From the NCBI GenBank assembly GCA_002050455.1, contig MWZA01000170.1:1-42344 (forward strand): a stretch of DNA of 42,344 nucleotides, read 5' to 3'. Shown here in pieces: positions 7,533 to 17,099 of the stretch (position 1 is its first letter; every line of letters starts with the position of its first letter). A program made the position numbers and the translations under genes. The notes beneath the pieces are model-generated. The model saw only the letters and a list, made by a program, of their open reading frames with translations. It did no database searches and was not told where the DNA came from. Source of the DNA: Acidobacteria bacterium 5-1. Lineage in GTDB: Bacteria > Acidobacteriota > Blastocatellia > Pyrinomonadales > Pyrinomonadaceae.

Positions 7533-8090
7533 ATGCTGCATCCGAAAATTTTAGATAAAGACAAAACCGCGCTTGTCGTCGTTGATTTCCAAGAAGCGTT
7601 TCGCTTTCCGATAAATGATTTCGCGCAAATTGCGTCGCGCATTTCGATTGCCGTGCGCGGTTTTCAGATCCTCGATTTACCCATCATTATCACCGAACAA
7701 TATCCGAAAGGCTTGGGCAGAACGGCGGAAGAAATTCTTTTTAGCTTGCCGCCTGAATTTGAGTTTGTCGAAAAAACGGCGTTTAGTTCGTGCGGCGCAA
7801 GTGCATTTATGGAAAAGCTGCGCGAAACCGGAGCAACTCAAATTGTGCTTAGCGGACTCGAAGCGCACGTCTGCATTAATCAAACCGCGCACGATTTATT
7901 AAACGAAGGTTTTGAAGTTCACATTTTAGAAGATTGCGTCAGTTCGCGTTTCACACGAGACAGAGAAACCGCACTTCGCAAAATGCAGATGAACGGAGTT
8001 CAGCCATCGTGCGTCGAGATGGCACTTTTTGAACTGATGCGCGATGCCCGACACGAGCAATTTAAGGAAATTCAGGAATTGATTAAATAA
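7533..8090 (+). CDS. Isochorismatase-family hydrolase (second copy)
   Basis: This 185-residue protein resembles the ISOC1/YcaC-like branch. The triad positions are Asp in LVVVDFQEAF, Lys in FVEKTAFSSCG and Cys in VLSGLEAHVCINQTAHDLL. RFTRDRETALRKMQMNGVQPSCVEMALFELMRD is typical of the C-terminus. It is the last host-like gene before the integron. Its stop codon at 8088-8090 abuts the point where recognisable integrase homology on the other strand ends, so the integrase deletion junction lies just at or past its 3' end. Confidence 0.88.
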   Translation: MLHPKILDKDKTALVVVDFQEAFRFPINDFAQIASRISIAVRGFQILDLPIIITEQYPKGLGRTAEEILFSLPPEFEFVEKTAFSSCGASAFMEKLRETGATQIVLSGLEAHVCINQTAHDLLNEGFEVHILEDCVSSRFTRDRETALRKMQMNGVQPSCVEMALFELMRDARHEQFKEIQELIK

Positions 8091-8219
8091 AGAGTTCGGA
8101 TGCCGGACATCGTAAAAGAAAATATACTTTTTCATCCAATAAATATAAGTTTTTTCGGTTTGCAGACTATAACGGCGAGTCCGCATAACAGCGCGGACTT
8201 GATTAAGTAGTGCTGACAT
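8091..8219 (-). pseudogene. intI: Integron integrase, N-terminal remnant
   Basis: From an ATG at 8219 the minus strand reads MSALLNQVRAVMRTRRYSLQ followed by TEKTYIYWMKKYIFFYDVRHPN, the N-terminal SAM-like DNA-binding region of integron tyrosine recombinases. About 43 of an expected 320-350 codons remain. The catalytic R-H-R-Y domain and the IntI-specific insert are gone, and the frame then runs into antisense of the neighbouring hydrolase. It points away from the cassette array, the usual arrangement in integrons. The remnant cannot have activity, so any cassette movement would need an integrase elsewhere. Confidence 0.75.
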
Positions 8220-8232
8220 ATTTTTATAATCG

Positions 8233-8306
8233 TGTCCGTTAAATAAATTCAACGGATGTCGGTTGAACTAATTTAACGGATGTCGGTTAAATTTATTTAA
8301 CGGACA
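8233..8306. repeat. Tandem and inverted repeats beside intI; candidate attI region
   Basis: A perfect 17-base inverted repeat (8233-8249 TGTCCGTTAAATAAATT and its complement at 8290-8306) flanks tandem 24-base direct repeats starting with AACGGATGTCGGTT at 8251 and 8275 and a partial third at 8299. It sits directly upstream of the intI remnant, where attI and the divergent promoters are expected. One GTT-containing core (GTTGAAC, about 8262) lies inside. Assignment as attI is inference. The following stretch to 8498 holds no convincing gene, only a small CGGCTT/AAGCCG hairpin near 8343-8359. Confidence 0.45.
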
Positions 8307-8498: not shown

Positions 8499-8653
8499 GC
8501 TCAACGGCGTTGGAGACGGAAAGCGAGACGCTCGTAACCGTCCTTCGTGGTTGACGTTCCCGCCTTTCGCTCGTGGCATCGTCTCTCTGCCAAACATTTC
8601 GCTATCTGCGGAAAAGCAAAAAACGCTGTTTCCTCTCAACTCTGACGTTATGC
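8499..8653 (+). repeat. attC site 0 (long, divergent)
   Basis: R'' GCTCAAC is at 8499-8505, L''-like TTGGAGACGG follows, and L' CTCAACTCTGAC is at about 8635. R' is GTTATGC at 8647-8653. The 155-base length and irregular middle differ from the 108-118-base sites downstream. It would end an upstream cassette that has no evident ORF. Confidence 0.6.
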
Positions 8654-8667
8654 TCTTCTCGTAATGT

Positions 8668-9138
8668 ATGAAATTCTCGAATCCTGTGTTTGCTAATTTT
8701 GTTTGGGCGGCTCTCTTTTTGGAAGGTCGGCTGCTTGCTATACCAATTATTTTGGCGGGATTAGTCATCGAGTTTTTCTTCGTTCGACGATTGACAGGAT
8801 TTAACGTAAAGCGTTCTATCGTTGCTGACGTTACAATGAACGCGGCTTCTTTATTGTTGGGCATTGTATTGATCCCTTTGGTTGGTCTTGCTTGGGAGTT
8901 TAGCGCAGGCGTGTTGCTTTACGAGCAATTCAACATTGGTTCATTTAGTTATGTGGCTTGGACGGCAACATTTATATTGGCGGTGCTGATTAACGCTGTA
9001 ATTGAAAATTTTGTTTTGAGGAGAATCTTTAAGTTGGAAAAAACTAAAGCAAGCTTTCGATGGCTTTGTGTGGCAAATGCTTTAAGTGTCGGAATCGCTT
9101 TTGCTAGTTTTTGGTTCTTTCCAATCAAGAACTCTTGA
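8668..9138 (+). CDS. Cassette 1: small multi-pass membrane protein
   Basis: This 156-residue protein has four predicted membrane helices (about residues 12-36, 52-75, 90-108 and 134-150). The charged segment FVLRRIFKLEKTKASFRW precedes the last helix. I recognise no family. The ATG lies 15 bases after the cassette's core site, without an obvious Shine-Dalgarno, as is common for first genes in cassettes. Partial copies of the same gene flank terC in cassette 8 (15310-15363 and 16175-16291), and both cassettes begin with the same GTTATGCTCTTCT. This shows that the gene is a recurrent cassette gene. Confidence 0.75.
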   Translation: MKFSNPVFANFVWAALFLEGRLLAIPIILAGLVIEFFFVRRLTGFNVKRSIVADVTMNAASLLLGIVLIPLVGLAWEFSAGVLLYEQFNIGSFSYVAWTATFILAVLINAVIENFVLRRIFKLEKTKASFRWLCVANALSVGIAFASFWFFPIKNS

Positions 9139-9150
9139 AAATAACGGCGA

Positions 9151-9264
9151 GCATAACAAGTCAATGGACGTGAGCGCGAAACAGCTACGCTGTTATTAAA
9201 CTTGTCCGTTAAACTTTAGCTTGTGTGATGGCGGTTTCGCGCCACGTCATCTCCGCCGTTCGAC
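9151..9264 (+). repeat. attC site 1
   Basis: R'' GCATAAC at 9151-9157 is complementary to the cassette's own start core GTTATGC at 8647. L'' is TGGACGTGAGCGCGAAAC and L' GTTTCGCGCCACGTCA, leaving one unpaired base in the stem as in classical attC hairpins. R' is GTTCGAC at 9258-9264. Confidence 0.92.
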
Positions 9265-9479
9265 GGCTTCACTTTATAACGCGGGCGACCAGATGCTTGA
9301 AGGCTAAACAATTGACGAGATTTTGTTCGAGTTCGTTCGTGAAATCATATCACGCAAAAAGCTGCTCCATTTCGCCGGCAGTCATTTTGACAACATCGCT
9401 CTCTCTCGACGTTTTGGCGGTTTGACAGTTCGCGTCGCCAACAGTTTGCTTTCGGTTGTTATTTTGAGAAAATCCGATA

Positions 9480-10331
9480 ATGATTAAAGTCGAAAATCTT
9501 TCATACACATATCCGAAGTCGAAAGAGATTGTTTTGAAAAATCTAAACTTTGAGATAGAGCGGGGCGAAATTTTCGGGTTTTTAGGACCTTCAGGTGCGG
9601 GGAAAAGCACGACACAGAAGGTTCTCTACAAAATACTTAACGACTTTGCCGGCGAAATTTGGATAGAAAATAAACCTTTGAAAGATTGGGGAAATGAATA
9701 TTTTGAAAAAATCGGAGTCGGTTTTGAACTCCCGAATCATTACCTGAAACTTACCGCGAAAGAGAATCTGAAACTTTTCGCTTCGTTTTATCCCGAAAAA
9801 AATCTGCAAAATTTTGACGCACTTTTTGAAATGTTCGGACTCGCGGGCGATGCCGATAAAAGAGTCGAAGAATTTTCAAAGGGAATGAAAATGCGCCTGA
9901 ATTTTATCCGTGCGATTATGCACAATCCCGATATTCTTTTTTTTGACGAACCGACCGCCGGACTTGACCCGGTAAATGCTCAAAAAATTAAGCGGTATAT
10001 CATCAAACTGAAAAATGAAGGCAAAACGATTTTCGTCACAACGCACGATATGACGACCGCCGACGAACTCTGCGACCGCGTTTCGTTTATCGCGGGCGGC
10101 GAAATTCGCCTGACCGAAAAGCCTTCGACTTTAAAGAACGAACACGGAAAACACACCGTCAAAGTCGAACTCGAAAACGGGCAAACGGCGGAGTTTCCAG
10201 TCAAAGATTTAGGAAATAATCGGAAATTTGCGGAGTTTATCGCACAGGGCGAAATCTTGAGAATCAACACGCAGGAAGCGACTTTGGAAGAAGTTTTTAT
10301 CAAAATCACCGGCACGAAATTAATGGAATGA
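9480..10331 (+). CDS. Cassette 2: ABC exporter ATP-binding protein
   Basis: This 283-residue nucleotide-binding protein has Walker A GPSGAGKST near residue 39, signature VEEFSKGMKMRLNFIRAI (FSKGM instead of LSGGQ, common in drug-type exporters), Walker B DILFFDEPTAGLDP and the switch VTTHDM. The C-terminal extension resembles CcmA/DrrA-type exporters. It overlaps the next permease gene by 4 bases. Upstream, 9265-9479 belongs to the cassette. It holds an open frame of about 60 codons lacking a good start and ending in the ATG of this gene (GATAATGATTAA), perhaps a decayed leader gene. Substrate is unknown; the three-gene layout resembles fluoroquinolone exporters of the Rv2686c-Rv2688c type. 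Confidence 0.93.
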   Translation: MIKVENLSYTYPKSKEIVLKNLNFEIERGEIFGFLGPSGAGKSTTQKVLYKILNDFAGEIWIENKPLKDWGNEYFEKIGVGFELPNHYLKLTAKENLKLFASFYPEKNLQNFDALFEMFGLAGDADKRVEEFSKGMKMRLNFIRAIMHNPDILFFDEPTAGLDPVNAQKIKRYIIKLKNEGKTIFVTTHDMTTADELCDRVSFIAGGEIRLTEKPSTLKNEHGKHTVKVELENGQTAEFPVKDLGNNRKFAEFIAQGEILRINTQEATLEEVFIKITGTKLME

Positions 10332-11026
10332 TTCAACTTTTCAAACAGATAAAATGGCAGTTTCTGATTTTTCAAAGGAACAATCTCATTACGATGATTG
10401 CCGGGATAACCGCGTTTTATGTTTTGATAATTTACTTGATTAAAGATTTCGCAAACGTGGAAAAATTCATCACGCTTTTGATATACAACGATCCGGCACT
10501 GGTCGGTTTTATTTTCATAGGAATTTCAATAATTTTAGAAAAAGACCAAGAAGTCCTTCCGGCTTTATTCGTTACTCCGTTTAGTCAACATATTTATCTG
10601 ATTTCTCGCATAATTACGCTCTCGGCAATCGGTTTTTTCGGTGCATTGGCGATGGTTTTGACGGCAAAAGGAACTTCGTTTAACGTCCTGCATTTTTCGG
10701 TCGGTGCGTTCTCAACCTGCATTTTATTTTCTTTAATGGGAATTTTCGTCGTCAGCTACACGACTGAAATTCTTCACTTTCTCCTGCGAGCCATTCCTCT
10801 TTTGGTTTTTATGAGTTTGCCGCTGCTCAATTACTTTGAATTAACGGATTTGAGTTTGCTCAAACTTTTTCCCGTTAAGGGCGGTTTGAATTTAATGGTC
10901 AATTCTTATCGGGAATCGCCGAATTTTTGGGAACTCGTTTTCGGCTATCTTTCAATTGCCGTCTGGACTCCTTTACTTTACTGGTTTGTTTATCGAATTT
11001 TTATGGCAAGGGTCGTCAAAATCTGA
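10328..11026 (+). CDS. Cassette 2: ABC exporter permease, first subunit
   Basis: This 232-residue integral membrane protein has about six hydrophobic helices (about residues 20-38, 55-70, 90-110, 120-145, 152-168 and 200-225). The charged motif SIILEKDQEVLPALFVTPFS after the second helix is typical of ABC-2 type exporters. It starts 4 bases inside the ATPase gene, and the next permease begins 5 bases after its stop, so the three genes form one translationally coupled operon. Its similarity to fluoroquinolone-export permeases is my reading of the overall arrangement and is not certain. Confidence 0.88.
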   Translation: MIQLFKQIKWQFLIFQRNNLITMIAGITAFYVLIIYLIKDFANVEKFITLLIYNDPALVGFIFIGISIILEKDQEVLPALFVTPFSQHIYLISRIITLSAIGFFGALAMVLTAKGTSFNVLHFSVGAFSTCILFSLMGIFVVSYTTEILHFLLRAIPLLVFMSLPLLNYFELTDLSLLKLFPVKGGLNLMVNSYRESPNFWELVFGYLSIAVWTPLLYWFVYRIFMARVVKI

Positions 11027-11030
11027 AAAT

Positions 11031-11741
11031 ATGAAGAAGCTCGTCAAAATCGCTATTAATGATTTCAGACTCGTTTTTCGGGACAATTCTTTAAAGATTT
11101 TCATCGCGCTTCCGCTAATGAATCTCGTTGTAATCCGTTACGCTGTGCCGTATGTCGCGGGAATTTATGAATTCTTGCAGGATTACATCGCCGTAATTTT
11201 AATGCTGGCGACAATGCAGGGTTCGATTGCTTTTGGGTTTATTTATTCGATGATTTTAGTTGATGAAAAAGATACGAATGTGGCAAAAGTTTACGGGATT
11301 TTGCCGGTTTCCAAATTCTGGTTTGTCGTTTTCCGACTGATTCCGCCGTTTCTTTTAGCAACTCTGGCGACTTTTTTACTTCTTTTGGTCGAACCTTTTT
11401 ACGGATTGCCTGTGCTTTCAAATCTCGTTTATTCGCTGCTCGCTGGACTTGTCTCGCCTTCGATGATTTTATTCATAGCGATAATCGCAAAAAATAAAAT
11501 CGAGGCAATGACGTGGCAAAAACTTTTTAATTTACCGCTTTTTCTGCCGATTCTGGCTTTTTTTGTTCCCGTTTCATTTTTCATTATTTTCGTAATTTTC
11601 CCAACCTTTTGGGCATATCAGGGATTTAATTCTTTAATTAAAGGTGGGAATTTTTGGTTTTATATGTCAATCGGATTTGCTTACAGTATTTTGCTGATTG
11701 CGCTGATGATTAAAAGATTTACAAGAAGTCATTTCAAATAA
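11031..11741 (+). CDS. Cassette 2: ABC exporter permease, second subunit
   Basis: An ATG at 11031, 5 bases after the previous stop, gives 236 residues. Six hydrophobic helices are visible, and SMILVDEKDTNVAKVYGILPVSKFWFVVFRLIPP carries the same exporter-type charged loop as its partner. An upstream in-frame ATG at 10956 would lie inside the previous gene and is rejected. Together with the ATPase it probably forms a heterodimeric ABC exporter. After the stop, about 75 bases lead to the attC of this 2.67 kb cassette. Confidence 0.88.
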   Translation: MKKLVKIAINDFRLVFRDNSLKIFIALPLMNLVVIRYAVPYVAGIYEFLQDYIAVILMLATMQGSIAFGFIYSMILVDEKDTNVAKVYGILPVSKFWFVVFRLIPPFLLATLATFLLLLVEPFYGLPVLSNLVYSLLAGLVSPSMILFIAIIAKNKIEAMTWQKLFNLPLFLPILAFFVPVSFFIIFVIFPTFWAYQGFNSLIKGGNFWFYMSIGFAYSILLIALMIKRFTRSHFK

Positions 11742-11815
11742 GCCGGTTATCCATAAGACTGGATTGAACAACCTTTGCTTGTGTAGGCAAGTTGCGCTTG
11801 AATCGCCAACGCGCC

Positions 11816-11929
11816 GTCGAACAATTCAATGGACGTGAGGGCGAAACAGCGATTTTGTTATTCGGCTTGTCCTTTTTCCCTCGCGTTGCGTGACGGCGGT
11901 TTCGCCCCACGTCATCTCAATCGTTCGGT
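11816..11929 (+). repeat. attC site 2
   Basis: R'' GTCGAAC at 11816-11822 matches the cassette start core GTTCGAC at 9258. Arms are TGGACGTGAGGGCGAAAC and GTTTCGCCCCACGTCA. R' is GTTCGGT at 11923-11929. Confidence 0.93.
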
Positions 11930-11976
11930 GCTTTCAGGTTTTGACGCAAAGTGTGCGCGATTTTCGTGTTTTGATG

Positions 11977-11982
11977 TATAAT
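11977..11982 (+). promoter_or_regulatory. -10 box of a cassette-borne promoter (cassette 3)
   Basis: A perfect TATAAT lies 11 bases upstream of the DUF433 start. A clear -35 at the usual distance is missing; a TTGACG at 11941 is too far. The antitoxin-first operon probably has its own promoter, as usual for toxin-antitoxin cassettes. Confidence 0.5.
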
Positions 11983-11992
11983 TCGAGTTGCT

Positions 11993-12214
11993 ATGGAAAT
12001 GAATTTAATTGAAACCAACCCTACCGTAATGATGGGCAAGCCCGTTATTGCCGGAACACGAATCACGGTTGAGCTTATTCTTGAAAAACTCGCTGCCGGA
12101 GAAACTGTCGAGCAAATTCTTGACGCTCATCCGCGTTTGACCAGACAGGCAGTTTCAGCCGCCTTGTTATACGCGGTTCAAAATTTACCGACCTATTCGC
12201 CGGAAGCGGTATGA
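11993..12214 (+). CDS. Cassette 3: DUF433 antitoxin
   Basis: This is a 73-residue DUF433 (VapB45-like) protein. The motif ETNPTVMMGKPVIAGTRITVELILEKLAAGETVEQILDAHPRLT is the canonical DUF433 helix-turn-helix, followed by a C-terminal hydrophobic and tail segment that would bind the toxin. It overlaps the downstream DUF5615 gene by 4 bases (ATGA), the standard antitoxin-toxin order. It is expected to repress the operon and neutralise the toxin. Confidence 0.88.
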   Translation: MEMNLIETNPTVMMGKPVIAGTRITVELILEKLAAGETVEQILDAHPRLTRQAVSAALLYAVQNLPTYSPEAV

Positions 12215-12573
12215 ATCTTTTAGGGGACGAAAGCGTTGACCGGCAAATTGTCGAACGCCTGCGGCACGACGGACACGACGTTTTATACATTGCTGAAGTC
12301 GAGCCGAGCGTTTCCGACAATGTTGTTTTTGACCGCGCCAATGAAAAGTCTGCACTGCTGGTAACGGGAGATAAAGATTTCGGCGAGATTGTTTTCCGTG
12401 ATAATCGTTTGAGTTCTGGCGGAGTTGTTTTGCTTCGGTTAGCGGGTTTATCCGCCGAAAAGAAAGCCGAGATTGTTTCTGACGTTTTTCGTGAGCGCGG
12501 AGCTGAATTTGCGAATCATTTTAGCGTCGTTACGCCGGGCAAAATCAGGATTCGTCCAAAAGAGACGACTTAA
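12211..12573 (+). CDS. Cassette 3: DUF5615 PIN-like toxin
   Basis: This 120-residue protein is of the DUF5615/Mut7-C PIN-like family. The acidic residues expected for metal-dependent RNase activity are present in LLGDESVDRQIVERLR, and TGDKDFGEIVF carries the second acidic pair. It appears intact, unlike its counterpart in cassette 6. It overlaps the DUF433 gene by 4 bases. It probably acts as an RNase toxin that is held in check by the antitoxin and stabilises the array. Confidence 0.87.
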   Translation: MNLLGDESVDRQIVERLRHDGHDVLYIAEVEPSVSDNVVFDRANEKSALLVTGDKDFGEIVFRDNRLSSGGVVLLRLAGLSAEKKAEIVSDVFRERGAEFANHFSVVTPGKIRIRPKETT

Positions 12574-12585
12574 AATCAACGCCGC

Positions 12586-12698
12586 ACCGAACAATTCAAT
12601 GGACGTGAGGGCGAAACAGCGTCTTTGTTAAAAACGTTGTCCGTTACCCTTAACTTGCGTGTATTCGGTTTCGCCCCACGTCATCTCAACCGTTCGGT
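12586..12698 (+). repeat. attC site 3
   Basis: R'' ACCGAAC at 12586-12592 matches the cassette start core GTTCGGT at 11923. The arms are the same as in site 2. R' is GTTCGGT at 12692-12698. Confidence 0.93.
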
Positions 12699-12736
12699 GC
12701 TTTCGGGTGAATTCGCGGCTTTCGTACAAAATAACG

Positions 12737-12742
12737 TATAAT
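12737..12742 (+). promoter_or_regulatory. -10 box of a cassette-borne promoter (cassette 4)
   Basis: A perfect TATAAT lies 10 bases upstream of the DUF4160 ATG, in the same relative position as in cassette 3. No good -35 hexamer is visible. Confidence 0.5.
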
Positions 12743-12751
12743 GCTTGAATT

Positions 12752-12994
12752 ATGCCGACCGTTTTGAGATACGAAGCGTATCGTATTTACTTTTACAGCC
12801 ACGAACCGAATGAACCGCCGCACGTTCATATTGACCGTGATAATTTGTCGGCTAAATTCTGGTTGAATCCTGTTTCGTTAGGGCGTAATCGTGGTTTTAG
12901 CGCACGGGAGTTGCGGCAAGTTGAAAGAATTGTTCGGGAAAATCGGCAAACTTTATTGGAGGCTTGGAATGAGTATTTTGGCATTAGCGGCTGA
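12752..12994 (+). CDS. Cassette 4: DUF4160 protein
   Basis: This 80-residue protein has the family hallmark YRIYFYSHEPNEPPHVHIDRD near the N-terminus (a His-rich loop) and a C-terminal helix RQVERIVRENRQTLLEAWNEYFG. DUF4160 genes are frequently paired with DUF2442 genes, as here. The function is not established; a toxin-antitoxin or defence-like role is suggested by gene pairing and mobility. It overlaps the next gene by 26 bases. Confidence 0.88.
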   Translation: MPTVLRYEAYRIYFYSHEPNEPPHVHIDRDNLSAKFWLNPVSLGRNRGFSARELRQVERIVRENRQTLLEAWNEYFGISG

Positions 12995-13244
12995 TGAGAG
13001 AGTCGCGGAAGTTGAAACAACGGAAGACGAACTAAGCGTTCGCTTGATGGACGGTAGAACAATTAGTGTGCCGCTTGTGTGGTATCCGCGCCTCTTGAAC
13101 GCAACAGCAGAACAGCGAAAGAACTGGCGGATTAGTGGCGGCGGTTACGGTATTCATTGGGAAGATGTGGACGAAGATTTAAGCACGGAAGGACTGTTGC
13201 GCGGTGCGCCCGCACCAAGTCCGTCGGCAGCAAAAGTCTTTTGA
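12969..13244 (+). CDS. Cassette 4: DUF2442 protein
   Basis: An ATG at 12969 inside the end of the DUF4160 gene gives 91 residues. The DUF2442 core is visible as VETTEDELSVRLMDGRTISVPLVWYPRLLNATAEQRKNWRISGGGYGIHWEDVDEDLSTEGLLRG. A longer in-frame start at 12891 is rejected because it would lie within DUF4160. The overlap implies translational coupling. The protein probably partners with DUF4160; the activity is unknown. Confidence 0.88.
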   Translation: MSILALAADERVAEVETTEDELSVRLMDGRTISVPLVWYPRLLNATAEQRKNWRISGGGYGIHWEDVDEDLSTEGLLRGAPAPSPSAAKVF

Positions 13245-13256
13245 ACCCCAACACGC

Positions 13257-13370
13257 ACCGAACAAGTCATTGGACGTGAGCGCAAAACAGCGGCTTTCTT
13301 ATCACGTTGCGTGGTTATCTCGGAGTTGCGTGGATTCGGCTGTCGCCCCACATCAACTCCGTCGTTCGAC
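13257..13370 (+). repeat. attC site 4
   Basis: R'' ACCGAAC at 13257-13263 matches the cassette start core GTTCGGT at 12692. R' is GTTCGAC at 13364-13370. The loop region differs from the other sites. Confidence 0.92.
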
Positions 13371-13417
13371 GCTTTCGGGCGCAAATCAGGCGGCATTTAA
13401 TTTAGGAGATTTTGAAT

Positions 13418-13594
13418 ATGTCTTGGAAACTACGAAAGAAACCTAATCCAAACGCGCCAAAAGTGCCAAAACCTCCTAAACCACCAAAGCCGCCTAAACC
13501 GCCGAAGCCTCCAAAACCTCCGCGTCCGTCGAAGCCGCCTGCTCCGCGAGGGACAGACGTATTATTGGAAGGACGATTAGCTTCTGCCGTTTGA
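13418..13594 (+). CDS. Cassette 5: Lys-Pro-rich miniprotein
   Basis: An ATG at 13418, 10 bases after a TTTAGGAG ribosome-binding site, gives 58 residues. They read MSWKLRKKPNPNAPKVPKPP, then about seven KPP units, then RPSKPPAPRGTDVLLEGRLASAV. The central part would form a rigid, positively charged polyproline-type segment. An in-frame ATG six bases upstream is less well placed. No family is recognised. Low-complexity coding such as this can be spurious, but the strong ribosome-binding site and the cassette context support it. Confidence 0.55.
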   Translation: MSWKLRKKPNPNAPKVPKPPKPPKPPKPPKPPKPPRPSKPPAPRGTDVLLEGRLASAV

Positions 13595-13607
13595 TATTCG
13601 ACGAAAG

Positions 13608-13706
13608 CTATTTCGCGGTAACATTGCGCCCAGCGTATGCGTCGGTTGCGTCGGAAGTGTTGCTGATTCGCTCAAGAATTTGTTGTTTAATTTGTTCGGT
13701 TGTCAT
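13608..13706 (-). CDS. Cassette 5: possible antisense miniprotein
   Basis: The minus strand has an ATG at 13706 preceded by AAGGGAAAACAAA and a 32-residue frame (MTTEQIKQQILERISNTSDA, then TDAYAGRNVTAK). It fills most of the non-coding half of cassette 5. The composition looks protein-like and the ribosome-binding site is plausible, but the length is marginal. It could be a truncated gene fragment. Confidence 0.3.
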   Translation of the reverse strand: MTTEQIKQQILERISNTSDATDAYAGRNVTAK

Positions 13707-13769
13707 TTTGTTTTCCCTTTGGCTTGGGCGCGGCGGCGAGAGAAGAAATCTTCTCTAGGCTCGCGCCGC

Positions 13770-13887
13770 GTCGAACAATTTATTGGACACCGAGCGCGGG
13801 CGCGGCGACTTTGTTTTCAAGTTGTCCGTTTCTTTTGGAGTTGCGTGGTTGCCCGCGCCCGCGCCACGCCCGTCTCAACCGTTCGAC
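13770..13887 (+). repeat. attC site 5
   Basis: R'' GTCGAAC at 13770-13776 matches the start core GTTCGAC at 13364. The arms differ from the other sites (TGGACACCGAGCGCGGGCGC against GCCCGCGCCACGCCCGTC), so this cassette may come from another attC family. R' is GTTCGAC at 13881-13887. Confidence 0.85.
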
Positions 13888-13948
13888 GCTTCGTGGTTAA
13901 TGTCAGCAATTCGCTTTATGATATGATTTGCATTGCAGAGGTGAATCT

Positions 13949-14179
13949 ATGAACTTAACTGAACGCATTACAATCAAACCTGAAATTTGTCACGGCAAAC
14001 CGACAATTCGCGGCTTGCGCTATCCGGTGGAGATGATTCTTGAACTTCTAAGCTCTGGAATGACACCGGACGAGATTTTAGCGGACTACGAAGACCTCGA
14101 ACGTGAAGACATTTTTGCAGCGTTAGCTTTTGCCACGCGATTAACTCAAATCAAGCGGGTTGAGTTGGCAGCAGTATGA
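13949..14179 (+). CDS. Cassette 6: DUF433 antitoxin
   Basis: The ATG at 13949 follows a CAGAGGTG ribosome-binding site and gives 76 residues with the DUF433 core ITIKPEICHGKPTIRGLRYPVEMILELLSSGMTPDEILADYEDLEREDIFAALAFA. It differs substantially from the cassette 3 copy. It overlaps the damaged toxin gene by 4 bases (ATGA). It seems intact and could still repress its promoter or protect against related toxins. Confidence 0.87.
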   Translation: MNLTERITIKPEICHGKPTIRGLRYPVEMILELLSSGMTPDEILADYEDLEREDIFAALAFATRLTQIKRVELAAV

Positions 14180-14509
14180 GATTTCTGGTTGACGCGCAAC
14201 TTCCGCGACGACTTGCGGCTTGGTTGAGCGAAACAGGTTTTGATACTGTTCACACTTTGGATTTACCGTTTGGCAATCGAACGCCAGACACACTAATTAA
14301 CGATGTTTCCACAGATGAGCTCGGATTTCGTGGATTCTTTTCTTTTGCAAAAGAAGCCTTATAAACTTTTGTTGATTTCGACAGGAAACATTCGTAACGC
14401 CGAACTTGAAGCATTGCTTCAGGCAAACATTGAAAAATTAAAAGAAGCATTTGACACAGGTTTTGAGTTTATTGAGCTAAACCAAAGAGCAATAGTTGTT
14501 CATAGCTAA
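14176..14509 (+). pseudogene. Cassette 6: DUF5615 toxin, disrupted
   Basis: The frame starting at 14176 reads MRFLVDAQLPRRLAAWLSET and on to TPDTLINDVSTDE, the start of a DUF5615 toxin. It then leaves frame. A second frame resumes SDFVDSFLLQKKPYKLLLISTGN to the stop at 14509, the normal C-terminal half. The residues expected between (a strand ending in a Lys-Asp pair just before SDFVDSF) are missing, so a small frame-shifting deletion near 14305-14320 removed part of the core. The toxin is probably inactive while its antitoxin is kept. Confidence 0.8.
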
Positions 14510-14515
14510 AGGCGC

Positions 14516-14623
14516 GTCTAACAAGTCATTGGACGTGAGGGCGAAACAGCTACTTTCGCGTTGCGTGGTTTCTTTCGGCTTGCGTGTTGGCGGTTTCGCC
14601 CCATGTCAACTCCGTCGTTCGGC
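14516..14623 (+). repeat. attC site 6
   Basis: R'' GTCTAAC at 14516-14522 fits the consensus RYYYAAC and pairs with the start core GTTCGAC at 13881 except at one base. The site is shorter (108 bases). R' is GTTCGGC at 14617-14623. Confidence 0.9.
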
Positions 14624-14640
14624 TCTTTCGGGTAAAATCA

Positions 14641-15162
14641 ATGGGTGTATTTATGAACGTTGAGCAAATCAAAAGCGCACTTATAATTCTTCGCGTTGGC
14701 AAAGCTGCCACTGAAGTTGTCGCGCAAATCAACGGCGACACTATTTATTCGCGGCAGTTCGCGGTTGGCACACAAACAATGGACGTGGCGGTTGTCGAAC
14801 ATTTCCAGCGTAAGCTGAACATGCTTATTGGCAATTACACTGCTGAAGCCATTAGAATTGCTGTTGGAAGCGCGTTTCCCGAAGATAGCGAATTAGCGAT
14901 ACAAGTGCGTGGACGTGACGTTGACGCTCAAATGCCGAGAACCGTGACGGTGACGGAAGCTGAAATCAGCGCGGCAATTTCAAATGTGGTGGAAACGCTA
15001 GTCAACGCAGTAAAAGTTGCCGTTCAGAGAGTTTCGTCAGAAGCGCGTGCGGCGTTGGCAGCGTTTGGAGCAATTGAGTTGACGGGCGAAGGCGCGTGTT
15101 TGCGCGGACTGGATAAGCGACTTATGTTTGCAACGGACTTGCTGGTGGTTATACCGGATTAG
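14641..15162 (+). CDS. Cassette 7: truncated MreB-like protein (C-terminal half)
   Basis: An ATG at 14641 (or 14653) gives about 170 residues that align with the second half of the actin-like protein MreB. YSRQFAVGTQTMDVAVVEHFQRKLNMLIGNYTAEAIRIAVGSAFPEDSELAIQVRGRDVDAQMPRTVTVTEAEIS matches subdomain IIB, and GAIELTGEGACLRGLDKRLM matches the adenosine motif (normally TGGGALLRGLD). The first actin subdomain is absent, and the phosphate-2 loop DIGGGTTE has become RVGKAATE. Nucleotide binding is therefore probably lost. It could bind host MreB and modulate cell-wall growth, or be a relic. There is no frameshift and the frame ends naturally. Confidence 0.8.
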   Translation: MGVFMNVEQIKSALIILRVGKAATEVVAQINGDTIYSRQFAVGTQTMDVAVVEHFQRKLNMLIGNYTAEAIRIAVGSAFPEDSELAIQVRGRDVDAQMPRTVTVTEAEISAAISNVVETLVNAVKVAVQRVSSEARAALAAFGAIELTGEGACLRGLDKRLMFATDLLVVIPD

Positions 15163-15182
15163 TCGTTAAAAATGAAAGCCGA

Positions 15183-15295
15183 GCCGAACAAGTCATTGGA
15201 CGTGAGGGCGAAACAGCTATTTTCTTAAAACGGCGCGTGGTTAATTTCACGTTGCATGTAGTCGGTTTCGCCCCACGTCAACTCCGCCGTTATGC
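15183..15295 (+). repeat. attC site 7
   Basis: R'' GCCGAAC at 15183-15189 matches the start core GTTCGGC at 14617. R' is GTTATGC at 15289-15295, the same core and following bases as at the start of cassette 1. Confidence 0.93.
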
Positions 15296-15309
15296 TCTTC
15301 TAGCAACGT

Positions 15310-15363
15310 ATGAAATACCTGACTCCCGTATTTGCCAATATGATTTGGAGAGAGAGTTTCTAA
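15310..15363 (+). pseudogene. Cassette 8: 5' relic of the cassette 1 gene
   Basis: The frame MKYLTPVFANMIWRESF stops after 17 residues. It parallels MKFSNPVFANFVW at the start of the cassette 1 protein, and the non-coding bases before it (GTTATGCTCTTCT to the ATG) are almost the same. It is the truncated front of a paralogous gene interrupted by terC. Confidence 0.75.
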
Positions 15364-15393
15364 ACAATTTAGCAGGGGGAGATTTTATAAAAT

Positions 15394-16164
15394 ATGGAAT
15401 GGCTGGCTGACCCGCAAATTTGGATTGCGTTTTTAACTTTAACGCTTTTGGAGCTCGTTCTCGGTATTGACAACATCGTTTTTATCTCGATTTTAGCGGG
15501 CAAATTGCCGCCTGAACAACAGGCGAAAGCGCGTTATATCGGATTGGCGTTAGCACTTGTGATGCGCGTGATTTTGCTTTTCTCGTTGTCTTGGGTTATT
15601 GGTTTGACCGCGCCTTTATTCACCGTTTTCGGACAGGAAATATCGGGACGCGATTTGGTTTTGCTCATCGGCGGTTTGTTTTTGCTGGCGAAAAGCACAC
15701 ACGAAATTCACGGCTCACTCGAAGGCGAAGAAAGTCATAAGTCCACGAAAATTTATCCGTCGTTTGTCGGCGTTCTTACCCAAATTATGCTTCTCGACAT
15801 CGTTTTCTCGCTCGATTCGGTGATTACGGCGGTTGGAATGGTTGATAATCTTTGGGTGATGATTGCGGCGGTAGTTATTTCTATCGGTTTTATGATGGCT
15901 TTTGCGGGAACAATCAGCGAGTTTGTCCAAAAACATCCGACTATCAAGATGCTTGCTTTGTCGTTCTTGATTTTAATCGGTGTCATGCTGATTGCCGAAG
16001 GTTTAGACCAACATATTCCGAAAGGTTACATCTATTTTGCGATGGCATTTTCAGTTCTTGTCGAAATTTTGAATCTGCGCCTTCGCAAAGTGAAAACTGA
16101 GCCGGTGCAGCTGCATAACGCTTACGACGATAAAGACGAAGCCAAACCATTGCAGACGGAATGA
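15394..16164 (+). CDS. Cassette 8: TerC family membrane protein
   Basis: This 256-residue, about seven-helix protein has the TerC/Alx signatures LLELVLGIDNIVFISILAGKLP (residues 19-40) and DIVFSLDSVITAVGM (about 133-147), each with the intramembrane acidic residues typical of the family. Relatives act in tellurite resistance, manganese export or metal loading of exported proteins. No CBS or CorC domain is attached. A strong AGCAGGGGGAGA ribosome-binding site precedes the ATG. The gene lies inside a split copy of the cassette 1 gene, so it has probably been captured secondarily. Confidence 0.93.
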   Translation: MEWLADPQIWIAFLTLTLLELVLGIDNIVFISILAGKLPPEQQAKARYIGLALALVMRVILLFSLSWVIGLTAPLFTVFGQEISGRDLVLLIGGLFLLAKSTHEIHGSLEGEESHKSTKIYPSFVGVLTQIMLLDIVFSLDSVITAVGMVDNLWVMIAAVVISIGFMMAFAGTISEFVQKHPTIKMLALSFLILIGVMLIAEGLDQHIPKGYIYFAMAFSVLVEILNLRLRKVKTEPVQLHNAYDDKDEAKPLQTE

Positions 16165-16174
16165 TTTGTTTGCC

Positions 16175-16291
16175 AATAAATTTAAGCTAGAAAAGAATAA
16201 AGCGGGCTTTAGATGGCTTTGTCTAGCAAACGCCCTAAGCGTTGAAATTGCTTTTCCTAGTTTTTGGGTTTTTCCAATCAAGAACTCTTGA
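16175..16291 (+). pseudogene. Cassette 8: 3' relic of the cassette 1 gene
   Basis: In frame up to the stop at 16289-16291 the sequence reads NKFKLEKNKAGFRWLCLANA and ends FPSFWVFPIKNS. It corresponds to IFKLEKTKASFRWLCVANALSVGIAFASFWFFPIKNS at the end of the cassette 1 protein. It starts within a few bases of the terC stop. The non-coding bases that follow (GAAAATAACGGCGAGCA) are also the same as after cassette 1. Confidence 0.85.
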
Positions 16292-16303
16292 AAATAACGG
16301 CGA

Positions 16304-16390
16304 GCAAAACAGCGACTCTGTTATCGCGTTGTCTTGTTCCCCTTAGCTTGCGCGTAGCGGTTTCGCGCCACGTTAACTCCGCCGTTCGGC
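16304..16390 (+). repeat. attC site 8, degenerate (R'' and L'' deleted)
   Basis: Compared with attC 1, which shares its flanks, 25 bases covering most of R'' and all of L'' are missing between GCGAGCA and AAACAGC. L' (CGCGCCACGTTAACTCC) and R' GTTCGGC (16384-16390) remain. The site should not fold into a recombination-proficient hairpin, which locks cassettes 8 and 9 together. Confidence 0.85.
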
Positions 16391-16399
16391 TCTTTCCTG

Positions 16400-16426
16400 T
16401 TGTCCCGGTTCTCGACCTGCTATAAA
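16400..16426 (+). promoter_or_regulatory. Possible promoter of the cassette 9 operon
   Basis: TTGTCC (16400-16405) and TATAAA (16421-16426) are separated by 15 bases, shorter than ideal, and lie 26 bases before the antitoxin ATG. This is a weak call. Confidence 0.3.
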
Positions 16427-16451
16427 CTGTTTTTTGTGAGGTTGTAATTTT

Positions 16452-16655
16452 ATGCTAAATACAGTTTGGGCTGTTGTCCACGAAGGCAGAATCGAAACGC
16501 TTGGTGAAGTTGACGCGCCTGAAGGCACAAGAGCTTTAGTTACGCTGCTCGTTGAAGATGAAGCCGACTTCTGGCAAGCAGCAAGCTCCGCACCATTCGA
16601 CGAAGTTTGGGGCAATGCGGAGGATGACGTTTATGCCGAATTACTCGAAGCCTGA
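16452..16655 (+). CDS. Cassette 9: small antitoxin of a PemK-type module
   Basis: This 67-residue acidic protein begins MLNTVWAVVHEGRIETLGEVDAPEGTRALVTLLVEDEADFW, a short beta-rich N-terminus, and has an acidic C-terminal tail (EVWGNAEDDVYAELLEA). This resembles small antitoxins (DUF104/AF2212-like and similar) placed directly before toxins. It overlaps the PemK-like toxin reading frame by 23 bases. Assignment as antitoxin rests mainly on this position and on its acidic tail. Confidence 0.7.
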   Translation: MLNTVWAVVHEGRIETLGEVDAPEGTRALVTLLVEDEADFWQAASSAPFDEVWGNAEDDVYAELLEA

Positions 16656-16966
16656 AATTGTGCTTCTCCGTTATCCGTTTTCGGATTTGACGAGCATAAA
16701 AGTCAGACTGGCGGTTATCGTTAATGCAGCGCACATTTCGCAAGATTTGTTTGTCGTCGCGCTAACGAGCAAAACGAGTAACTTGTTAGCCTGGTGAGTT
16801 TGTTCTTACCGAGTGGAAAGCGGCAGGCTTGAACTTGGAAACGATGGTCAAGCGCGGTATCTACACGATAAAAGAAACGCTGGTCAGAAAGCGCGTCGGC
16901 AAACTTGAGGATGCAGACGCGGAACAACTTGAAAAGTCCTTGCGTGATTGGCTGGATTTGCCATAA
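16633..16966 (+). pseudogene. Cassette 9: PemK/MazF-like toxin, frameshifted
   Basis: From the ATG at 16633 the frame reads MPNYSKPEIVLLRYPFSDLT, then IKVRLAVIVNAAHISQDLFVVALTSKTSNLLAW, and stops at 16797. The next frame continues directly with EFVLTEWKAAGLNLETMVKRGIYTIKETLVRKRVGKL to 16966. Removing one T near 16791 restores LLAGEFVLTEW, the usual PemK sequence, so a single-base insertion broke the gene. The PemK RNase fold is otherwise complete. A sequencing error cannot be excluded. Confidence 0.88.
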
Positions 16967-16986
16967 GCCTTCGAAAATAACGGCGA

Positions 16987-17099
16987 GCCGAACAAGTCAT
17001 TGGACCTGAGGGCGAAACAGCTACTTTCTTATCACGTTGTCTTTTGAACTCAAACAGGCTTGGTGGCGGTTTCGCCCTACGTCAACTCTACCGTTATAG
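16987..17099 (+). repeat. attC site 9 (last of the array)
   Basis: R'' GCCGAAC at 16987-16993 matches the start core GTTCGGC at 16384. R' is GTTATAG at 17093-17099, which differs from all other R' cores in its last base. No further attC is seen downstream. Confidence 0.9.

Follow-up and report, generated by a model that had tools for sequence, protein, structure and literature searches.

The window analyzed here is the whole of contig C20 (42,344 bases) of Acidobacteria bacterium 5-1, whose genome assembly comprises 3.2 Mb and is 79% complete. On its forward strand, positions 14618 to 15289 form a gene cassette of 672 bp with a single ORF, its limits being set by the G/TT cut points of two attC R'' cores (14617-14619 and 15289-15291). 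The earlier note had described an intact frame inside matching attC cores at this place, and its span proved to be the cassette exactly. The ORF (14653 to 15162, forward strand) has 169 codons plus a stop and encodes a protein of 169 aa, hereafter half-MreB; we took the start that is common to its homologue, and an in-frame ATG also lies at 14641, which yields the 173-aa version P0001. The 5' boundary of the cassette is the GTT at 14617-14619 within the attC site of the preceding DUF433/DUF5615 cassette (14514 to 14619, forward strand), a site with exact or nearly exact cores and a weak bottom-strand stem-loop (z -0.8 versus shuffles). The cassette's own attC site follows the ORF at 15181 to 15291 on the same strand (AACAAGTCATTGGACGTGAGG ... 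TTTCGCCCCACGTCAACTCCGCCGTT), and its bottom strand folds (z -2.6 versus shuffles).

The cassette sits in an array that extends from 8647 to 17095 on the forward strand, with attC 5' cores at 9155, 11820, 12590, 13261, 14520, 15187, and 16991 and with eight 3' cores. Genome-wide, the attC core AACAANTCANTGGACGTGAG has 77 matches with at most one mismatch, spread over about 10 contigs, whereas the reversed control pattern has none. Among these contigs is G000:C184, which carries the same attC family and encodes an intact integron integrase, IntI (458 bits for a cut-off of 265). The number of cores, the empty control, and the intact IntI together exclude chance repeats and identify a large chromosomal integron, in which half-MreB has the anatomy of a cassette gene: an ORF followed by attC, a G/TT junction, and an integrase in the genome. 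A probable remnant of an integron integrase N terminus (residues 1 to 50) lies on the reverse strand at 8064 to 8210, its TIGR02249 match (3.5e-8, 34 bits) being far under the cut-off. Between this remnant and the first cassette, positions 8233-8304 hold a 24-bp unit (TGTCGGTTAAATTTATTTAACGGA-like) three times in tandem, every copy being an inverted repeat. A scan for sigma-70 promoters gave no match better than shuffles.

Several neighbors in the array deserve mention in their own right. Positions 9480-11741 encode an ABC-transporter-like three-gene unit (an ATPase, an FLQE3-type permease, and a third ORF with no Pfam match). In the adjoining upstream cassette, the DUF5615 (PIN-like) gene at 14176-14509 is frameshifted, with profile positions 1-47 in one frame and 56-106 in another; its DUF433 partner is intact (13928-14179), and the array also has an intact DUF5615 gene at 12211-12573. 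The cassettes at 8636-9260 and 15278-16387 are alike over their first 71 nt (79%) and their last approximately 235 nt (73%, with 131 nt at 85%). The former contains a small ORF that resembles a membrane protein gene (8668-9138); in the latter, a TerC gene that is complete (15394-16164) precedes a remnant of the C terminus of that same small ORF. TerC seems to have taken the place of the middle of an existing cassette, which would possibly make this cassette a snapshot of a gene in the course of becoming one.

The proposal that the cassette encodes a domain II portion of MreB was borne out. The product of 14653-15162 matches Pfam MreB_Mbl with an E value of 5.4e-30 (104.8 bits, cut-off of 27) over profile positions 135-303 of 327, and, in the PDB, it matches residues 152-311 of Caulobacter crescentus MreB (1.9e-23). 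NCBIfam MreB models also recognize it (1e-31), but with 110 bits against a full-length cut-off of 293. Identity to the host MreB of the mreBCD type is 42%; the host encodes mreBCD, a second full MreB, and HTH_25 (RodZ-type) domains. Convincing homology is confined to domain II (IIA plus IIB). As the earlier note had stated, the N-terminal part of domain I (about 150 residues) is absent; the C-terminal segment of domain I, which in canonical MreB comes after "LPVVIAD", is absent too, a point that the note had missed. Both ends of half-MreB thereby coincide with structural domain limits. The protein matches the MreB/Mbl family profile and, as domain II only, does not possess the two-lobe fold around a nucleotide cleft. 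By the defining features that we tested, it is not an MreB, having one lobe and no catalytic residues, but an MreB-derived single-lobe protein.

The residues that serve the nucleotide in canonical MreB are largely replaced. In the window copy, the phosphate-2 loop has changed from DIGGGTTD to RVGKAATE, as the first reading of the sequence had suggested; the adenosine motif, reported there as present, is kept only in part, GGGA having become GEGA. Across the three copies that we identified (see below), D161 of the phosphate-2 loop is R, S, or Y, the middle glycine of the adenosine GGG is a charged residue, E, E, or K (GEG or GKG), and A, E, or L stands in place of the catalytic T167 of C. crescentus. 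Both catalytic E140 and the MreB helix of the inter-protofilament contact (V118) lie N-terminal to the point where the lobe begins, and subdomain IA contains the membrane elements (PMC4051119, PMC10279915), so all of these domain I features are absent from half-MreB. The residues examined for ATP binding and hydrolysis (E140, T167, the phosphate-2 GGGT, and the adenosine GGG) are thus not retained as a set, and, judged by them, half-MreB should no longer bind or hydrolyze ATP. Double filaments and membrane binding by the known MreB elements would likewise be excluded by anatomy, given the established biochemistry of MreB.

Changes reach beyond the nucleotide site. Of 30 lobe positions that are invariant in 37 canonical MreBs, 8 are kept in all three copies and 11 are changed in all of them, namely, G165, T166, A170, K215, G240, L271, P276, D281, R285, G292, and L295 (numbered after the canonical MreB in L007, whose T166 is T167 of C. 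crescentus). The lost invariant residues were not enriched in the nucleotide site (5/10 there versus 6/20 elsewhere), and P276, D281, and R285 adjoin the C. crescentus intra-protofilament residue S283. The best-kept segment is IIB, within approximate boundaries: it is 64% identical between the two close copies, compared with 43% for the first IIA part, and 51 to 56% identical to host MreB in each of them. At 26 positions, the two close copies agree on a residue that none of the canonical MreBs examined has, which, as read from the alignment, indicates that the lobe is under a constraint of its own.

AlphaFold2 predicted a complete actin lobe for half-MreB, with a pLDDT of 89 and a pTM of 0.82 for the best model and pLDDT values of 71 to 77 for the other four, from an alignment of four rows (two halves and two full MreBs). 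A Foldseek search with this model returned MreB at the top, with a TM score against Caulobacter MreB of 0.90 normalized by the query and of 0.49 by the target, since the model is half of an MreB. When the two half sequences alone were supplied as a control, no good model was obtained (pLDDT of 35). The actin-like fold that the earlier note had expected from prediction was thus recovered for the isolated lobe only with MreB rows in the alignment, and the fold claim stands on homology together with the first model.

Two relatives of the window copy were found. The genus-mate Acidobacteria bacterium 28-9 (G001:C117) encodes a 173-aa copy that is 57% identical to it; between the two genomes, DNA homology begins exactly at 14617, the GTT of the cassette start, the initial 20 bases being 85% identical and the sequence upstream 20 to 27%. 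This break at G/TT implies that the unit moved as a cassette and supports the earlier view of a mobile fragment of the cytoskeleton. A candidate empty site beside an isoaspartyl peptidase gene in G001 differs in synteny. The second relative is a diverged domain-II-only ORF of the host itself, located on G000:C151 in an array other than that of the window copy (167 aa, Pfam E value of 8e-19). All three copies have intact frames and the same domain limits at both ends, and both domain I segments are missing from each. In a tree of the lobe they form one clade (100/98) on a long branch, a grouping that rests partly on the very long branch of the C151 copy and may possibly reflect long-branch effects; a topology joining the C151 copy to the second MreB type of the host was rejected (p-AU of 0.014). 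The two ORFs upstream of the C151 copy were considered as operon partners and dismissed, as they form a module that occurs elsewhere without half-MreB. This two-gene module (L020:4094-5421 on G000:C151, L101, and L103) encodes proteins of about 195 aa and 247 aa with hydrophobic N termini and no known domains, and it recurs in several cassettes, across several genera of the family.

The half-MreB family was found in two genomes of a single genus. No further window-type copy occurred in 119 genomes of the family, 162 of the class, and 396 sampled from the phylum or in a scan of GTDB contigs; no C151-type copy was found in other genomes of the family, and three scans of viral contigs returned no relatives of half-MreB. 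MreB-like matches in phage and plasmid records were all below 40% identity, and those with annotation were ordinary mreB. Short MreB frames in six family genomes (G017, G021, G078, G042, G049, and G112) were rejected as members because they lay at contig edges, had an internal gap, or were fragments that did not follow the domain limits.

Comparison of the window and G001 copies gave a dN of 0.31, a dS of 1.10, and a dN/dS of 0.28 (bootstrap range, 0.18 to 0.44), so that a homologue under purifying selection, which the earlier note had called for, does exist. In this pair of genomes, canonical mreB has a dS of 0.91 and a dN/dS of 0.03. By this measure, the lobe is about 10 times freer in its evolution than MreB, yet clearly not neutral. 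As both copies compared were already truncated and carried in cassettes, the constraint most simply acted on the lobe itself. Half-MreB is almost certainly a real, selected, single-lobe protein derived from MreB.

What such a lobe does is a question on which we are more reserved. We favor, tentatively and short of even confidence, the reading that half-MreB is a nucleotide-blind lobe that docks on the host MreB machinery as a one-sided filament cap or competitor. A stand-alone domain II, derived from full-length MreB, would fold alone and would dock through its retained surfaces, of which IIB is the most conserved block; the docked lobe would then cap MreB filaments on one side or compete with them or with RodZ, the IIA partner of MreB, and expression of the cassette would tune or block cell wall elongation. 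RodZ is known to bind subdomain IIA of MreB (PMC6946637). The conservation of the IIB face and a cut that follows the domain limits point to docking on MreB or on RodZ, whereas the missing inter-protofilament and membrane parts and the altered IIA residues of the longitudinal contact argue against simple co-polymerization, which leaves a one-sided cap or competitor. That MreB or its direct partners are the main target is, in our estimation, plausible though somewhat less than an even bet.

The 26 shared derived positions fit a new role as well as they fit MreB binding, and half-MreB may have been repurposed as an adaptor or self-assembling protein of a new kind that has lost every link to the elongation machinery. 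The loss of longitudinal and nucleotide residues, the long branch of the clade, and a weak additional match of the G001 copy to PilM (0.0013) point the same way; nevertheless, MreB models score 110 to 123 bits on half-MreB compared with 18 for PilM, and IIB of both close copies still resembles that of host MreB. We regard this alternative as less probable than the docking role but as a serious rival to it. A decoy role, antitoxin-like or anti-phage, is another serious rival, although it seems to us unlikely. The lobe would display an MreB surface and absorb an MreB-directed toxin or phage inhibitor, so that the real MreB is spared. MreB is a known target of CbtA and YisK, and E262 of E. coli MreB, which is required for CbtA binding, belongs to a surface in domain II (PMC5624674); toxin-antitoxin-like cassettes (DUF433/DUF5615) occur in the array, and the faster evolution of the lobe relative to mreB would suit an arms race. 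However, the three copies have N, K, or G in place of E262, and PADLOC returned no match for P0001, which leaves the suggestion of defense against, or sensing of, cell wall attack with no direct support. The intact frames and identical domain-exact ends of all three copies and a dN/dS whose upper bound of 0.44 applies after truncation make it very improbable that the cassette carries the debris of a decaying truncated mreB, despite the few copies in a single genus, the broken DUF5615 gene directly upstream, and the existence of a random mreB fragment in G112. Finally, a split MreB, in which the lobe and a domain I from a separate gene would together make up a whole MreB, would suit the domain-exact cut but is hardly conceivable, as no free domain I gene was found in nine genomes of the genus (that of the host being 79% complete) and the nucleotide residues of the lobe are lost.

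Half-MreB can be set beside several known systems. It resembles MreB of C. crescentus (4czf/4czj) and Thermotoga maritima (1jcf) in the sequence and fold of domain II but lacks domain I, the C-terminal return segment, the catalytic Glu and Thr, and the membrane and inter-protofilament elements, and its gene sits in an integron cassette. Lobe II of the DnaK nucleotide-binding domain (PDB 5oow; TM scores of 0.67/0.63 in the fold search) is likewise a single actin-fold lobe II, crystallized alone, but it is a laboratory construct that binds nucleotide, whereas half-MreB is natural and has lost the nucleotide residues. CbtA/CbeA, YisK, and YodL, small proteins with an accessory role that target MreB-type filaments, may be analogous in function; unlike half-MreB, they are not homologues of MreB. 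With integron cassette ORFs of unknown function, half-MreB shares flanking attC sites, one gene per cassette, and presence in few genomes, and it differs from them in that its descent from a core gene of the cytoskeleton is clear.

In the open literature that we searched, most subscription journals being outside its scope, we found no report of a naturally occurring single-lobe MreB or of a cassette derived from MreB. With still more reserve than for the docking role itself, we propose that half-MreB may represent a new single-lobe actin-like class, a nucleotide-blind domain II spread on integron cassettes that would work in trans on the host MreB machinery, capping it or competing with it, and so provide a mobile handle on cell wall elongation. 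If half-MreB binds MreB, integrons would be carriers of proteins that modulate an essential cytoskeleton, and the lobe would be a ready tool for telling apart the IIB and IIA surfaces of MreB in the control of filaments and RodZ. Whether or not it binds MreB, half-MreB is a clear case in which a single domain of a core gene has become mobile cargo maintained by selection.
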